Below, piece after piece: positions 5,097 through 50,156 of a stretch of DNA of 64,000 nucleotides (positions are counted from its first letter, which is position 1; each line of letters opens with the position of its first letter). The stretch is from positions 62,001 to 126,000 of the forward strand of contig NZ_PVWN01000007.1 of the NCBI RefSeq assembly GCF_003003885.1, in the 5' to 3' direction. This stretch comes from Chlorogloea sp. CCALA 695. Its GTDB lineage: Bacteria > Cyanobacteriota > Cyanobacteriia > Cyanobacteriales > Chroococcidiopsidaceae. Both the position numbers and the translations under genes were made by a program. The notes beneath the pieces were generated by a model. It ran no database searches, was not told the DNA's origin, and saw only the letters and a program-made list of their open reading frames with translations.

Positions 5097-6143
5097 ATGA
5101 AAGCACAGGTATTTAGAGGCGTTAATCAACTGAGTTATGAAGAATTGCCTGTACCAACTCTCGCCGATGATGAGGTTTTGGTTCAAGTTCACGTGGTGGG
5201 ATTATGTCAGTCAGATATCAAAAAGATTCTTTATCCCCTGTTTGAACCACCGCGTATTTTTGGGCATGAAATGGCGGGAGTTATTGCTAAAGTAGGTAAT
5301 AATGTTACAGATTGGCAGGTAGGCGCGCGTGTAGTTGTCATGCACCATATTCCGTGTATGCGTTGTCAATACTGCCTTCATGACAATTTTTCGATGTGCG
5401 ATGTTTACAAAAATATCTCCACTACGGCGGGTTTTAATGCTAGTGGCGGCGGTTTTGCTGAATATGTCAAAGTTCCCGGTCATATTGTCCGTAATGGTGG
5501 TTTAATACCGATACCCGATCGCGTTACCTTTGAACAAGCAAGTTTTGTAGAACCGACTAATTGCTGTCTCAAGGCAGTAAAAAAAGCCCAAATTTCTCCC
5601 GGCGATACGGTGCTTGTGACTGGTGCGGGCCCTATTGGCTTGATGTTTATCATGTTAATTAAGTATTTTGGTGGGAGAGCAATTTCTACAGATTTAATTC
5701 CTTCTCGCTTAGAAAAAGCCTTAAGTGTAGGCGCTGAAGCTGCTTTTGATGCCCTTGATCCTAATTTAACTGCTAATATATTAGCCTTAACTGATGGTAT
5801 GGGCGTTGATACTACTTTGCTTGCTGTACCTAGCGACAAAGCTTTTTTTCAAGCTCTTGATTGTACTCGTCGTGGCGGCAAAATTCTGTTTTTTGCGGAG
5901 TTTCCTGATCAATTAGAGATTCCGATTAATCCCAATGTTCTCTACCGCCGAGAAATTGATTTAATGGGTAGTTATAGTTCTTCTTATCGCTTGCAAAGTC
6001 TGGCTGTGGATATTGTTTTTAATCAACGAATTGATGTTAATGCACTCATAAGCGATCGCTTTTCTTTGCAAGAACTTCCGGCGGCGGTTACTAGAGCAAC
6101 TTCTCCACAAAGCGATACTTTGAAGATTTTGATCTATCCTTAA
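5097..6143 (+). CDS. Zinc-dependent medium-chain alcohol/polyol dehydrogenase
   Basis: MDR-family NAD(P)-dependent dehydrogenase of the sorbitol/threonine dehydrogenase type, 348 residues. Visible features: catalytic zinc ligands C37 and H57-E58 (GHEMAG) and E152 (VEPTNC); four structural-zinc cysteines at 87, 90, 93 and 101; Rossmann motif TGAGPIG at 175-181. The substrate cannot be read from the sequence; a sugar alcohol or amino alcohol is plausible. The gene stands alone and is followed by a terminator-like hairpin, so it is probably monocistronic. Conservation of all zinc ligands argues for an active enzyme. Confidence 0.85.
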   Translation: MKAQVFRGVNQLSYEELPVPTLADDEVLVQVHVVGLCQSDIKKILYPLFEPPRIFGHEMAGVIAKVGNNVTDWQVGARVVVMHHIPCMRCQYCLHDNFSMCDVYKNISTTAGFNASGGGFAEYVKVPGHIVRNGGLIPIPDRVTFEQASFVEPTNCCLKAVKKAQISPGDTVLVTGAGPIGLMFIMLIKYFGGRAISTDLIPSRLEKALSVGAEAAFDALDPNLTANILALTDGMGVDTTLLAVPSDKAFFQALDCTRRGGKILFFAEFPDQLEIPINPNVLYRREIDLMGSYSSSYRLQSLAVDIVFNQRIDVNALISDRFSLQELPAAVTRATSPQSDTLKILIYP

Positions 6144-6193
6144 CTACCCAGTTATTAATTATTGTGAGAATCTATCTTTGGGTAGGTTTTTTT
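6144..6193 (+). terminator. Probable Rho-independent terminator after the dehydrogenase
   Basis: CTACCCA (6144-6150) pairs with TGGGTAG (6179-6185) across a long loop and is followed at once by GTTTTTTT. The position directly after the dehydrogenase stop and the T-run support termination. The long loop lowers confidence. Confidence 0.5.
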
Positions 6194-6270
6194 GCTTGAG
6201 CGTAAAATGATTGCAGTTTAATTTTATCATCTATCTAACGATAGATATTTTTTGTTGAACTTTAATATTT

Positions 6271-6642
6271 ATGAATCCATCTTCTCCTACACGCGGACAA
6301 TTAGAAAGAACGCTATCCCAGCGTATTGAATCTTTGTACCGCTCTCAATTAGAACACAAACCAAGTAAAGTAGTATGCCAAATTTTTGATGAAAAAATCG
6401 CAATTATTCTTGAAGATTCTATCACTCAACCAGAACAAATCTTAGTTAATAATGGTCAACAGGAGTTAGCAGAAAAAGTACGTTCTGAGCTAGATGAGGC
6501 TCTCCAGCCACAACTAAAAGCATTAATTGAAGAAATAGTTGGAGTCAGCGTAATTGACTTACTCAGTAATGCTAAATTAGAGACTGGGCGTAGTGCTACT
6601 ATTGCTATCTTGGCAGAATCGCCGCAATTTCGCAGCCCATAG
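6271..6642 (+). CDS. DUF2294 domain protein
   Basis: Small 123-residue soluble protein. The layout RGQLERTLSQRIESLYRSQL, then KVVCQIFDEKIAIILEDSIT, then a helical middle and GVSVIDLLSNAKLETGRSAT fits DUF2294, annotated in databases as a Na+-translocating decarboxylase-like domain with no proven function. There is no signal peptide or membrane segment. It is isolated between the dehydrogenase and a convergent receiver-domain gene, so context gives no clue. The ATG at 6271 is the only good start; no clear ribosome binding site precedes it. Confidence 0.7.
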   Translation: MNPSSPTRGQLERTLSQRIESLYRSQLEHKPSKVVCQIFDEKIAIILEDSITQPEQILVNNGQQELAEKVRSELDEALQPQLKALIEEIVGVSVIDLLSNAKLETGRSATIAILAESPQFRSP

Positions 6643-6754
6643 TATCAACAATAGAGCTTTGGATCTTAAGTTTTTGGTCTTATAGTTTTATTGAGTAAGC
6701 TAGACTATAACACCTAATACCTAACATCTAAATTCTCTAATCTAAAATGTTCAA

Positions 6755-43268: not shown

Positions 43269-46172
43269 ATGTATAACACTTCAACTCGCCCGATATTTAT
43301 TTTAGTTGACGGACATTCTTTAGCTTTTCGGTCGTATTTTGCCTTTGCTAAAGGACGGGATGGCGGGTTAAAAACAACTACAGGCATTCCTACCAGTGTT
43401 TGTTTTGGTTTTCTTAAAGCATTATTAGAAGTAATGAGCGTCCAGAAACCTGAAGCAATGGCGATCGCATTTGATTTGGGTTTACCGACTTTTCGCCACG
43501 AAGCCGACGATACTTATAAAGCCGATCGTCCTGGTACACCAGAAGATTTTGTCCCCGACTTAAAGAATTTGCACGAATTGTTAGAAGGCTTGAGTATCCC
43601 AATTTTAACGGCTCCAGGTTATGAAGCTGACGATATTTTGGGTACATTGGCGATGCAAATGAGCGCGGTGGGGTATGAAGTAAAAATTCTGACAGGCGAT
43701 CGCGATTTATTTCAACTTGTCGATCCCCAAAAGCACATTGGAGTTTTATATCTCAGCACCACTTTTATACAACGTGGCGGTACTGGCCCTAGCGACTTTG
43801 GTAGCGAGCAAGTCCAAGAAAAGCTAGGAGTTTTACCCTCGCAAGTAGTTGACTTTAAAGCATTGTGTGGCGATAAATCCGATAATATTCCTGGTGTGCG
43901 AGGAATTGGCGAAAAAACTGCCGTTCAATTATTGACAACTTATAATAATCTCGATCAAATTTACGCTTCTATAGAGCAAATTAAAGGCGCTACGCAAAAG
44001 AAGCTAGTAGAAGGTAAAGAAGACGCTTACCACTCGCGTTTTATGGCGCAAATTGTGCTGAATGTACCTGTAGAACTTCAGTTAGAAGACTGCAAACTTA
44101 CGGGTTTTGACAGTAGTAAATTAGAGCCAATTTTAGAAAAGCTAGAATTTAAGACCTTTTTAGGCAAAGTTAATCAAATCCAACAGCGATTTGGTGGCGT
44201 TGTCGAGGAAAAACCCGCCACAGCTTCTCCCGTTGTTGAAGAACCGGAGTTTGCCAGCGATGACTTGTGGTTTTTTAGCGCCGCCGATACCGCCAGTGCC
44301 AAGCAGCAACTAATCTCGCCCATTACACCACAAATTATTGATACCCAAGCTAAGTTAAGGCAATTAATCGAGAGATTGCAAACTTTTACAGACACTAATA
44401 CCCCCGTTGCATGGGATACGGAAACCACAGATTTAGAGCCAAGAGACGCGCAATTGGTCGGAATTGGTTGTTGTTGGGGTAGCGAAACAACAGAGATGGC
44501 TTACATCCCTCTTGGACATAAAGCTGGGGCAAATTTAGATACCGCTACTGTACTAAATGAATTGAGAAGCATTTTAGAAAGTAACGATTATCCTAAATCA
44601 TTGCAAAATGCTAAATTTGACCGCTTAGTTTTGCATTGTCAGGGCATAAATCTAGCTGGAGTCGTGTTTGATACGATGCTGGCAAGTTATGTTTTAGATC
44701 CAGATAGCAGCCACAATTTAAGCGATTTAAGCCAAAAGTATTTAGGGATAACTGCGAAAAGCTATACAGAGTTAGTCCCCAAAGGTCAAACAATTGCCGA
44801 CATTGACATTCCTGCCGTTGCTGACTATTGCGGGATGGATGTTCATTGTACGTTTAAATTAGTACCCAAACTTAGAGCCGAATTAGCCAAAGTACCCAAT
44901 TTACACAAGTTGCTAATAGACGTAGAGCAACCTTTAGAGCCTGTTTTGGCGCAAATAGAGTATGACGGAATACGGATTGATTCAGAATACCTAAAAGAGC
45001 TTTCAGACAAGTTAGAGCAAGATTTAGCAGCTTTAGAAATTCAAGCTTACGCCGCCGCCGGAGAAAAGTTTAATTTAGGTTCGCCCAAACAGTTGAGTGT
45101 ATTATTGTTTGACAAACTCAACTTAGATCGCAAAAAGTCGCGGAAGATTGCTACAGGTTATTCTACCGATGCAGCAACTTTAGAAAAATTGCAAGGGGAT
45201 CACGCCGTAGTTGATGCACTTTTAGAATACAGAACTTTATCTAAACTGAAATCTACCTATGTTGATGCCCTTCCCGCGCTAGTACGCACTGATACGGGGC
45301 GCTTGCATACTAATTTTAACCAAACCGTCACCTCTACTGGGCGCTTATCTTCTTCTAATCCCAACTTGCAAAATATCCCAATTCGGACAGCTTTTAGTCG
45401 GCTAATTCGTAAAGGTTTTATTCCCGAAACTGGCTGGTTGATGGTAGCGGCGGATTATTCACAAATTGAGTTGCGAATTTTGGCGCATTTATGCCAAGAA
45501 CCGATATTAGTTGAAGCGTACCAAGGTAACGAGGATATTCATACTGTTACAGCACGATTGTTGTTTGAAAAAGATACCGTTACACCCGATGAGCGGAGAC
45601 TGGCGAAAACTATCAATTTTGGCGTAATTTATGGGATGGGCGCTCAAAGGTTTGCTAGAGAAACTGGGATGAAAGCCACTGAAGGTAAGGTTTTTATTGA
45701 GAAATTTAACCAAACTTACCCGATGGTTTTTGCTTATTTGCAAACAATGCAACAACAAGCGATCGCAAATGGTTATGTAGAAACAATTTTTGGTCGTCGT
45801 CGTTACTTTAATTTTACAAGCGATCGCCTCCGCAAGTTGCATAACTCCAAAATTGAAGACATTAACCTAGATGAAATTCGCGGTTTGACAGCTAATGATG
45901 CAGGGTTATTAAGGGCGGCGGCTAATGCACCCATCCAAGGATCGAGCGCTGATATTATCAAAGTGGCAATGATTCAACTGCACGATATTTTAAAAAATTA
46001 CCAAGCGCGAATACTGTTGCAAGTTCACGACGAATTAGTATTTGAAGTTCCATCCGATGAGTGGGAAAACTTGCAGATTCAAATTAAATCGACAATGGAA
46101 AATGCGGTAAAACTCAGTGTTCCTTTAATGGTTGATGTTCGTGCGGGTAATAATTGGATGGAAACAAAATGA
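43269..46172 (+). CDS. polA: DNA polymerase I
   Basis: 967 residues. 5'-3' exonuclease domain (about 1-300) with ILVDGHSLAFRSYFAF, APGYEADDILGT and GDKSDNIPGV. Proofreading exonuclease domain (about 350-540) with intact ExoI AWDTETTDLE, ExoII NAKFDRLVL and ExoIII YCGMDVHCT, so 3'-5' proofreading should be active. Polymerase domain with DYSQIELRILAHL, RRLAKTINFGVIYGMG and QVHDELVFE. It functions in Okazaki fragment processing and repair. The stop overlaps the next ATG (ATGA), coupling it to the Rpn-family gene, an unusual partner. Confidence 0.97.
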   Translation: MYNTSTRPIFILVDGHSLAFRSYFAFAKGRDGGLKTTTGIPTSVCFGFLKALLEVMSVQKPEAMAIAFDLGLPTFRHEADDTYKADRPGTPEDFVPDLKNLHELLEGLSIPILTAPGYEADDILGTLAMQMSAVGYEVKILTGDRDLFQLVDPQKHIGVLYLSTTFIQRGGTGPSDFGSEQVQEKLGVLPSQVVDFKALCGDKSDNIPGVRGIGEKTAVQLLTTYNNLDQIYASIEQIKGATQKKLVEGKEDAYHSRFMAQIVLNVPVELQLEDCKLTGFDSSKLEPILEKLEFKTFLGKVNQIQQRFGGVVEEKPATASPVVEEPEFASDDLWFFSAADTASAKQQLISPITPQIIDTQAKLRQLIERLQTFTDTNTPVAWDTETTDLEPRDAQLVGIGCCWGSETTEMAYIPLGHKAGANLDTATVLNELRSILESNDYPKSLQNAKFDRLVLHCQGINLAGVVFDTMLASYVLDPDSSHNLSDLSQKYLGITAKSYTELVPKGQTIADIDIPAVADYCGMDVHCTFKLVPKLRAELAKVPNLHKLLIDVEQPLEPVLAQIEYDGIRIDSEYLKELSDKLEQDLAALEIQAYAAAGEKFNLGSPKQLSVLLFDKLNLDRKKSRKIATGYSTDAATLEKLQGDHAVVDALLEYRTLSKLKSTYVDALPALVRTDTGRLHTNFNQTVTSTGRLSSSNPNLQNIPIRTAFSRLIRKGFIPETGWLMVAADYSQIELRILAHLCQEPILVEAYQGNEDIHTVTARLLFEKDTVTPDERRLAKTINFGVIYGMGAQRFARETGMKATEGKVFIEKFNQTYPMVFAYLQTMQQQAIANGYVETIFGRRRYFNFTSDRLRKLHNSKIEDINLDEIRGLTANDAGLLRAAANAPIQGSSADIIKVAMIQLHDILKNYQARILLQVHDELVFEVPSDEWENLQIQIKSTMENAVKLSVPLMVDVRAGNNWMETK

Positions 46173-47098
46173 TCGACCATGACCGCTTATTTAAAGAACT
46201 CATTAGTACATTTTTTGTAGAGTTCTTAGAGTTATTTATCCCAGAAATATTAACTTATTTAGATCGAGATTCTATTACTTTTTTAGATAAGGAAATATTT
46301 ACAGATATAACTGCGGGTGAAAGGTACGAAGCCGATCTAATTGTTAAAGCTAAGTTTCGCTCTCAAGAATCTTTTTTCTTGATTCATATAGAAAATCAAG
46401 CACAACAACAAACGGACTTTAGCAAGCGGATGTTTCGGTATTTCTCACGTTTATATGAAAAATTCGATTTACCTATTTATCCAGTGGTTTTGTTTTCTTA
46501 TAAGTATCCCAAAACTATAGAGCCAAACTGCCATCAAGTAGCATTTCCTAATAAAGTAGTTTTAAATTTTAACTACGATGTCATCCAACTAAATCAACTG
46601 AATTGGCGCGACTTTGTGCAACAAGCTAATCCCGTTGCTAGTGCATTAATGGCAAAAATGAACATAGCAGATGGCGATCGCCCAAAAGTAAAGCTAGAAT
46701 GTTTACGGTTACTTGCAACATTGCGTCTAAATCCAGCAAAAATGCAATTAATATCTGGGTTTATCGACAGTTATTTGCAGTTAAATGCTCAAGAAAAGCA
46801 GCTTTTTCAAGCTGAAGTTGATAAAATTGAACCAACCCAAAAGGAGGCAACAATGAAAATAGTTACTAGCTGGATGAGAGAAGGAATTGAGCAAGGACTT
46901 GTACAAGGAAAGCAATCAGAAGCCTTATCTCTAGTTACACGCCAGCTTACTCGAAGAATTGGAACTGTTACGCCCGAATTGCAACAGCGTATTGAGCAAC
47001 TACAACTTACTCAGTTAGAAGATTTAGCAGAAGAATTGTTAGACTTTTCTGAAGTAGCAGATTTAGAAGCTTGGCTGCAACAAATTTCTGTTGAATAA
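46169..47098 (+). CDS. Rpn-family PD-(D/E)XK nuclease with DUF4351 tail
   Basis: 309 residues from the ATG that overlaps the polA stop. The PD-(D/E)XK core is in the N-terminal half: D56 in EADLIVK and E75-x-Q77 in IHIENQ, followed by RMFRYFSRLYEKF. This is the Rpn/YhgA-like (recombination-promoting nuclease, putative transposase) family. The C-terminus (about 250-309) is a DUF4351 helix pair (PELQQRIEQLQLTQLEDLAE). A perfect AAGGAGG lies five bases before an in-frame ATG at 46853, so the last 81 residues can be made separately. In E. coli Rpn genes such an internal product (RpnS) blocks the toxic full-length nuclease. Confidence 0.85.
   Translation: MIDHDRLFKELISTFFVEFLELFIPEILTYLDRDSITFLDKEIFTDITAGERYEADLIVKAKFRSQESFFLIHIENQAQQQTDFSKRMFRYFSRLYEKFDLPIYPVVLFSYKYPKTIEPNCHQVAFPNKVVLNFNYDVIQLNQLNWRDFVQQANPVASALMAKMNIADGDRPKVKLECLRLLATLRLNPAKMQLISGFIDSYLQLNAQEKQLFQAEVDKIEPTQKEATMKIVTSWMREGIEQGLVQGKQSEALSLVTRQLTRRIGTVTPELQQRIEQLQLTQLEDLAEELLDFSEVADLEAWLQQISVE
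46842..46855 (+). promoter_or_regulatory. Internal ribosome binding site and start inside the Rpn gene
   Basis: AGGAGG (46842-46847), five bases, then in-frame ATG at 46853. It fits an independent 81-residue C-terminal product (46853-47098). The equivalent spacing is kept in the duplicated copy (GGAG 47151-47154, ATG 47161). Confidence 0.6.
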
Positions 47099-47160
47099 TT
47101 GTCAGCTTTTATTTACGAATTGAAGTTGATAAAATTGAACCAAGAAAACAGGAGACTACA

Positions 47161-47394
47161 ATGGAAATAGTTACTAGCTGGATGGAGAAAGGAATTGAGC
47201 AAGGAAAGCAATCTGAAGCTTTATCTCTAATTAAGCGTCTACTTCCTCGTAAAATTGGTGCATTTACGCCCGAATTGCAACAGCGCATTGAGCAATTACA
47301 ACTTACTCAGCTAGAAGATTTAGCAGAAGCATTGTTAAATTTTTCTGAGATAGCAGATTTAGAAGCTTGGCTGCAACAAATTTCTGTTGAATAA
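47161..47394 (+). CDS. Small DUF4351 protein, duplicated tail of the Rpn gene
   Basis: 77 residues (MEIVTSWMEKGIEQGKQSEA ...) nearly identical to the last 81 of the Rpn protein, with a four-residue deletion. GGAG lies six bases before the ATG. The frame is kept open despite divergence, suggesting it is or was expressed. It has no nuclease domain. A role as an antitoxin or modulator of the full-length nuclease is inference; a decaying remnant of duplication is the alternative. Confidence 0.65.
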   Translation: MEIVTSWMEKGIEQGKQSEALSLIKRLLPRKIGAFTPELQQRIEQLQLTQLEDLAEALLNFSEIADLEAWLQQISVE

Positions 47395-47404
47395 TTGCCA
47401 GCTT

Positions 47405-47683
47405 TTATTTACGAACATCGTTAAAAGAGAAATCATCCTCATCAAAGTCATCATCGCTATTTCTTTTAGCACCAGCCAAACTCCACAATGGTTGAATCAG
47501 CGCCATTAAAACTATACCTACACCGACACTGAAAGCGATCGCTAAAAAAAATGGGATTTGAATAGATGTAAAGGTGAAAAACTTTAAAGATATTGGTGTA
47601 ACGTTCTTTAACGAAAGAATTGCGATCGCAGTTACCCAAGTAGCCACAATTAAAGCAGCAATTAAATTAGCTATAGTTTTCAT
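47405..47683 (-). CDS. LapA-domain (DUF1049) membrane protein
   Basis: 92 residues from the ATG at 47681-47683 (MKTIANLIAALIVATWVTAI). Two membrane helices (about 4-24 and 40-62) flank a short LKNVTPISLKFF turn, the DUF1049/LapA pattern seen in lipopolysaccharide-assembly protein A. The tail is acidic (SDDDFDEDDFSF). In E. coli LapA affects LPS assembly; the cyanobacterial role is unproven. Upstream is the phosphomannomutase gene on the same strand, 50 bases away. Confidence 0.72.
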   Translation of the reverse strand: MKTIANLIAALIVATWVTAIAILSLKNVTPISLKFFTFTSIQIPFFLAIAFSVGVGIVLMALIQPLWSLAGAKRNSDDDFDEDDFSFNDVRK

Positions 47684-49331: not shown

Positions 49332-50156
49332 ATGTTTATTCTTGGGCGACCTTTTGCCAGCTATCATCTATGGTCATTAGTTGCCCCGGCGGTGGGACAA
49401 GAGCGTTGGCATTGTCAAATGAAGCGGGGCTTTATTAAGGCGCGGCAAAAAGATCCTATAGTTAAAGAGCTTTTAGCCCACGCGACACCACCGCAGCGTA
49501 TTGGAATTTTGGCGCAAAAGGGTGTTTATGAGTTTCATCACCGTAGCGAGTTATTAAGCCAGCCAGACGGGGTAGAAAAAGTTGCCCAGTTGCTTAAGTT
49601 GAACAAATCAACGGAGGAAGTGCAGCAGCGTGTAATTCAAATTTTAAAAAATTATCACCATGCTCCGCTACTAGAAGGTAAGCATATTGTCCAGTTAACG
49701 CGCGGTGATGAGGGGTTTCCGCGTCCAATTTCAATTAAACAAGTGGAGTATCCTTTTCGGCTCTATGCGGCGATGGACTGCATTTTTAGCGAAAATGGTA
49801 GCAGGCTACATATTATAGATTTTAAAACGGGTAAGTCAGCTTTCGATCAAAGGCAAGCTTTAGTATATTTAGTTGCTGCTCGTTATTTGTATCCTCATAA
49901 TTATGCCGTCGCCTCTTTTTATAATTTAGAACACTGCAAAAAGTCGGTGTTAATAACGGTTAGTTCTAGTCAACTAGATACAATTGAAAATCAGTTAGCC
50001 CAAGTTGCTCAAAAGCATCAGCAAGATTTACGCCGCTACGAACAGAAACCTGTTAATTTTAGTAAGATTTTTCCGCCGAATCCTGGCAATCACTGCCGTT
50101 ACTGCGCGTTTAATTCAATTTGTGAATTTTCTGGCTTTAAGCAAATTGGGGAATAG
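49332..50156 (+). CDS. PD-(D/E)XK nuclease with predicted Fe-S cysteine cluster
   Basis: 274 residues. RecB/Cas4-like nuclease core: D149 in AAMDCIF and D163-x-K165 in HIIDFKTGK. Three C-terminal cysteines at 255, 258 and 264 (NHCRYCAFNSIC) with one N-terminal cysteine (C28 in RWHCQM) fit the iron-staple arrangement of AddB/Cas4/Dna2. The DNA role (repair or nucleic acid processing) is inferred. There is no CRISPR or cas gene nearby. Start ATG 49332. It sits between the mutase and rsmI genes. Confidence 0.75.
   Translation: MFILGRPFASYHLWSLVAPAVGQERWHCQMKRGFIKARQKDPIVKELLAHATPPQRIGILAQKGVYEFHHRSELLSQPDGVEKVAQLLKLNKSTEEVQQRVIQILKNYHHAPLLEGKHIVQLTRGDEGFPRPISIKQVEYPFRLYAAMDCIFSENGSRLHIIDFKTGKSAFDQRQALVYLVAARYLYPHNYAVASFYNLEHCKKSVLITVSSSQLDTIENQLAQVAQKHQQDLRRYEQKPVNFSKIFPPNPGNHCRYCAFNSICEFSGFKQIGE

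Follow-up and report, generated by a model that had tools for sequence, protein, structure and literature searches.

A nuclease gene in the cyanobacterium Chlorogloea sp. CCALA 695 contains a candidate translation start within its own reading frame, and the segment that surrounds this start is repeated in tandem. This layout raises the question of how many proteins the locus encodes and what the free-standing copy of the tail might do. The locus lies in a window of 64,000 nucleotides (the whole stretch of DNA analysed) from a genome of 5.2 Mb in 168 contigs, referred to here as G000. An earlier note on this DNA had read it as an Rpn nuclease with an intragenic antitoxin and an extra antitoxin copy. 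The features, in window coordinates, are as follows.

46169 to 47098, + strand: Rpn-like PD-(D/E)XK nuclease gene (“RpnL”), 309 aa (open reading frame, profile matches, invariant residues)
46813 to 47120, + strand: tandem unit 1 (repeat detection, alignment)
46842 to 46847, + strand: Shine-Dalgarno AGGAGG of the internal start (sequence, family-wide test)
46853 to 47098, + strand: putative intragenic short ORF (“RpnS”, type A), 81 aa, DUF4351 tail (sequence, profile, family-wide test)
46886 to 46909, + strand: IEQG-LVQG, a pair of four-residue repeats within the tail's first helix (alignment; their number varies among relatives)
47121 to 47415, + strand: tandem unit 2, 12 nt shorter (repeat detection, alignment)
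47150 to 47154, + strand: Shine-Dalgarno AGGAG of the free copy (sequence)
47161 to 47394, + strand: free-standing tail ORF (“RpnS-prime”, type B), 77 aa, DUF4351, one four-residue repeat fewer

The N-terminal half of the long product matches the Pfam model Transposase_31 with 21.4 bits, just over the cut-off of 21, and the Rpn subfamily model TIGR01784 of NCBIfam with 30.3 bits (E 3.6e-7), under the cut-off of 52.1. The predicted catalytic residues of the D...E-x-Q/K motif (D56, E75 and Q77) are unchanged across 18 homologues. Both tails match DUF4351 (PF14261) with 84.2 and 80.6 bits (cut-off 25; E 6e-24 and 8e-23), a domain present in 57 of the 60 related genomes searched. The closest named relatives at the locus are an uncultured Aliterella MAG, A. 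atlantica CENA595 and Chroococcus sp. CMT-3BRIN-NPC107. A fold search of the full-length predicted model against the PDB gave no significant match, no defence model in a PADLOC search clearly recognised the locus, and a PHROGs search returned one phage transposase family as a weak match. The gene polA lies directly upstream, the nuclease ATG overlapping its TGA stop (ATGA), and polA and the long form may be coupled in their expression. The same overlap (46169-46172 in the window) is present in the sister genome G001 and in G002 and G004, and the long ORF has no clear Shine-Dalgarno (SD) sequence. At 49332-50156 there is also a 274-aa ORF with a C-terminal cysteine cluster (CRYCAFNSICEF), which looks like a RecB/Cas4-type PD-(D/E)XK nuclease and occurs as well in L107, a region of G003 (C22), at 5876-6700.

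Within the nuclease gene, a perfect AGGAGG stands five bases (CAACA) ahead of an in-frame ATG (46853-46855), as the earlier note had claimed, and 81 codons follow up to the stop at 47096-47098. We scored 97 full-length DUF4351 nuclease genes (<80% identity, nearly all from cyanobacterial loci) for an in-frame ATG with an SD at proper spacing, in a 45-codon window near the start of DUF4351. Divergent members are under-represented in this set because it was taken from the best-scoring DUF4351 matches. As a null, synonymous codons were shuffled 200 times within each gene, which keeps both the protein and its codon usage.

Data showed that the junction ATG is preceded by an SD of at least 4 nt in 90 of the 97 genes, against 36.8 expected from the shuffles (maximum 48), and by one of at least 5 nt in 72, against 16.7 expected (maximum 26). 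Of 297 other in-frame ATGs in these ORFs, 9 are preceded by an SD of at least 4 nt and 2 by one of at least 5 nt, same-size windows farther upstream hold an SD-ATG in 3/97, 0/97 and 1/93 genes, and the long ORFs' own start codons have an SD in just 15 of 92. Glu226, whose GAG codon is part of the SD here, and Met229 are unchanged in 18 homologues, some of them from non-cyanobacterial records (Methylovulum and others). The internal SD-ATG is thus conserved beyond amino-acid need, which is strong evidence that the site is kept for translation initiation. We conclude that the gene very likely makes two proteins, a nuclease and a short inhibitor from the internal start. The reading as an Rpn-like nuclease whose gene also encodes a short intragenic product is well supported by this conservation. 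A promoter scan found no internal promoter-like site above chance. In L107 (3001-3938), the G003 orthologue is frameshifted ahead of the internal start, and its SD-ATG and tail ORF are intact.

The tandem repeat spans 46813-47415 with a period of 296-308. Where the earlier note had a 306-base unit whose second copy lost 12 bases, the duplication and the 12-base difference hold, but unit 1 measures about 308 and unit 2 about 296 bases. Unit 2 does retain the GGAG-ATG and the open 77-codon frame described there: AGGAG, six bases, the ATG at 47161 and a stop at 47392-47394. The free tail and the tail of the gene share 83% identity. Comparison of the units gave a dN/dS of 0.24 and a dS of 0.35, and type B tails compared between species gave a dN/dS of 0.15; by these substitution rates, purifying selection acts on both units. 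Since dS is 0.35 between the units and 0.28 between the nuclease halves of G000 and G001, the duplication is at least about as old as the split of these species, and its frame has survived.

Other cyanobacteria were searched for the tandem tail, as had been suggested, and free tails recur at other loci and in other genera. They stand behind the gene at L005, L032/L120, L044, L047, L073, L115, L118, L121, L122 and L125, most with an SD-ATG, in a list made up partly of loci fetched for looking tandem. An orthologous free tail is common to G057 and G060. By hand count, complete tandem tails occur at 4 loci in 19 fully listed genomes, roughly 5% of DUF4351 loci. The genus itself has two tandem loci in G000 and two in G001, and none was seen in G002 to G005. 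At the second G000 locus (G000:C51:19000-23000; L138; L005 604-1713) both tails are open and the nuclease half is apparently split by a frameshift; its G001 orthologue (L123) is also tandem, and G003 (L083) has a single tail there. At L120/L032 (G021:C25), three free DUF4351 tails, spaced at 350 bp and without clear SD, stand behind one nuclease gene; two of the three are identical in protein. Two DUF4351 domains are fused in a single frame at L185 315-1347 (G022:C99) and L069 1455-2607 (G022:C22), possibly as the in-frame result of a like duplication. Near relatives also come from MAGs labelled Tatlockia (L101), Chthonomonadaceae (L108) and Acidobacteria (L111), the first label being doubtful because L101 resembles G005, a cyanobacterium of the same genus.

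Such tails could be debris of duplication, with the internal SD-ATG fortuitous and DUF4351 merely the oligomerisation domain of an ordinary nuclease. Cyanobacteria are less strict in their use of SD sequences, which would leave room for this explanation. It would also suit the finding that rpn loci often carry tandem duplications (Zhong et al. 2023, PMC10327210), but it has to contend with an internal start conserved beyond the needs of the protein, with a frame kept under selection since a duplication older by dS than the divergence of the G000 and G001 nuclease halves, and with free tails that carry an SD-ATG at most tandem loci of other genera. We regard debris as very improbable and treat the free tail as a gene in its own right.

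The 12 bases absent from unit 2 correspond to one four-residue repeat, the gene tail having IEQG-LVQG and the free copy IEQG. Relatives differ at this site by whole repeats (one more in G004 and in G003, two fewer in G005), the indels that separate gene tails from free tails come in multiples of four residues, and in about 9 of 12 cyanobacterial gene/free pairs (hand count) the two tails are one to three repeats apart. E. coli RpnS has four-residue repeats too, sited in the dimerising first helix, and in RpnC one repeat added to a single partner abolished neutralisation (Zhong et al. 2023, PMC10327210). Given this rule and the repeat missing from unit 2, the free copy should mismatch the gene's own product, a prediction made across a large evolutionary distance.

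This bears on the earlier suggestion that the free copy raises the dose of antitoxin, in which more of the same inhibitor would lower the chance of free nuclease. The 83% identity of the tails, the free copy's own SD-ATG and the equal repeat numbers at three tandem loci (L005, L047 and L073) speak for it, and a dose role would be allowed in G001, where both tails have the same number of repeats. However, repeat number differs at most tandem loci, and unit 2 of G000 lacks one repeat, a mismatch of the size that abolished neutralisation in E. coli RpnC (PMC10327210). Because the missing repeat is the matching element of RpnC, the dose hypothesis is weakened and seems to us rather unlikely; by this analogy, an antitoxin of new or shifted specificity fits better. 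The other G000 nucleases reach at most 52% in their match to the query and none has a tail close to unit 2, which leaves no evident alternative partner in this genome.

Comparison with the sister genome G001 showed that the two tail types are exchanged. At the same locus, the G001 gene carries the type that is free in G000 (CCAAGAAAACAGGAGACTACAATG...GGATGGAG), and the G001 free copy carries the type of the G000 gene (CCAACCCAAAAGGAGGCAACAATG...GGATGAGAG). Crosswise pairing of the G000 and G001 tails is favoured by 15 sites, several of them adjacent and representing perhaps eight independent changes, versus 1 internal site for the orthologous (parallel) pairing. Under the AU test, the orthologous pairing was rejected with p 4e-6 and the species-wise one with p 0.002, and the B-type clade had an SH-aLRT of 99.7 and a UFBoot of 92. 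The single-copy relatives G003, G004 and G005 have type A in the gene. From these sequences, it is most likely the G001 nuclease that changed its tail, and the simplest history would be an ancestral array of at least three tails resolved differently in each species, or else a series of recombinations between units. The second tandem locus (C51/C329) was considered as a further swap, but its site counts, 4 each for cross and parallel and 6 for within, make it a mosaic, and the claim was dropped.

The swap is seen in one genome pair, G000 and G001, and G001 is a MAG of 65% completeness. The same order could arise if a B-type tail had been imported into the G001 gene from another strain, in line with the several states that type B shares with the outgroup G002, Aliterella atlantica, or if the MAG had been assembled wrongly. 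The longest exact match between the units runs 42-47 nt, which is short for modern assembly k-mers and makes misassembly unlikely, and nothing is out of order at the unit edges or in the downstream flank of G001. Import or misassembly is, to our judgement, an unlikely source of the swap.

Taken together, the anatomy of the locus, the conserved internal start, selection on both units and the tail types exchanged in two species point, at a probability of about 0.7, to an Rpn-kind gene-within-gene toxin-antitoxin locus. The long product would be a PD-(D/E)XK endonuclease whose helical C-terminal DUF4351 tail mediates oligomerisation. Initiation at the internal AGGAGG-ATG, in the same frame, would yield the 81-residue tail alone, which would pair with the nuclease tail and hold the nuclease inactive. 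The second unit would be a separately translated tail gene, diverged to type B and one four-residue repeat shorter, most likely acting not as a simple addition to the dose but as an antitoxin of shifted matching and as a reserve for recombination. Through recombination between units, the nuclease would then acquire a new tail together with the intragenic antitoxin that matches it. We tentatively suggest, at less than even odds, that the tandem units form a switching cassette, in which deletion or recombination between them leaves the other type free. Translation, neutralisation and a shift of specificity are thus what we infer for the tails; with E. coli as the sole guide, the nuclease may be toxic and have an anti-phage function in defence.

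If so, the gene-within-gene principle of Rpn toxin-antitoxins extends to DUF4351 nucleases, on a test of internal starts that uses sequence and is independent of expression data. The exchanged tails offer a concrete model of how a nuclease might alter its antitoxin match without killing its host, and the cassette, if true, would serve to shuffle antitoxin specificities.

With E. coli RpnL/RpnS the locus shares the PD-(D/E)XK half, a variable helical tail, an internal in-frame RBS-ATG and, 8-20 residues past the Met, four-residue repeats in the tail's first helix. In contrast, the cyanobacterial tail is a DUF4351 domain, and Pfam makes no DUF4351 call on the E. coli RpnE tail. The predicted tail model is helical (helix 4-31, mean pLDDT 78.5), and its comparison with solved structures, including the three-helix dimer of RpnAS (PDB 7TH0), gave no decisive match and no detectable similarity to solved RpnS. 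A search of a collection of phage genomes turned up no relative, which within that collection gives no support to a phage-borne decoy antitoxin. RpnS has been described as an intragenic or a separate protein, annotated as DUF4351 in some species, and second, downstream RpnS genes are described for E. coli rpn (Zhong et al. 2023, PMC10327210). That paper was the only mention of DUF4351 found in a literature search of limited reach.

The extra copy proposed in the earlier note holds up as an ORF under selection that has a start of its own, but copies of this kind were known before, the E. coli rpnE-ypaA locus being alike. As in rpnE-ypaA (RpnE and free RpnES) and in rpnC with downstream rpnCS, a tandem tail duplicate with its own SD-ATG lies directly behind the gene. 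In E. coli K-12 rpnE, AAAAGGAGAGATTAATG lies inside the gene and the segment recurs directly downstream (ypaA), and both rpnE-ypaA products were detected via tagging (Zhong et al. 2023, PMC10327210). At both loci the gene tail and the free copy differ by 12 nt, the free copy being one repeat longer in K-12 (+12 nt) and one shorter here. No case of a gene and its free copy trading tail types was found in the text of Zhong et al. 2023 (PMC10327210). The layout is thus known from E. coli, and this analysis adds a test of the internal start across the family of DUF4351 nucleases, along with the exchange of tails. In its shuffling of antitoxin specificity, the putative switching cassette would follow a logic comparable to that of the orphan toxin/immunity modules of polymorphic toxins.
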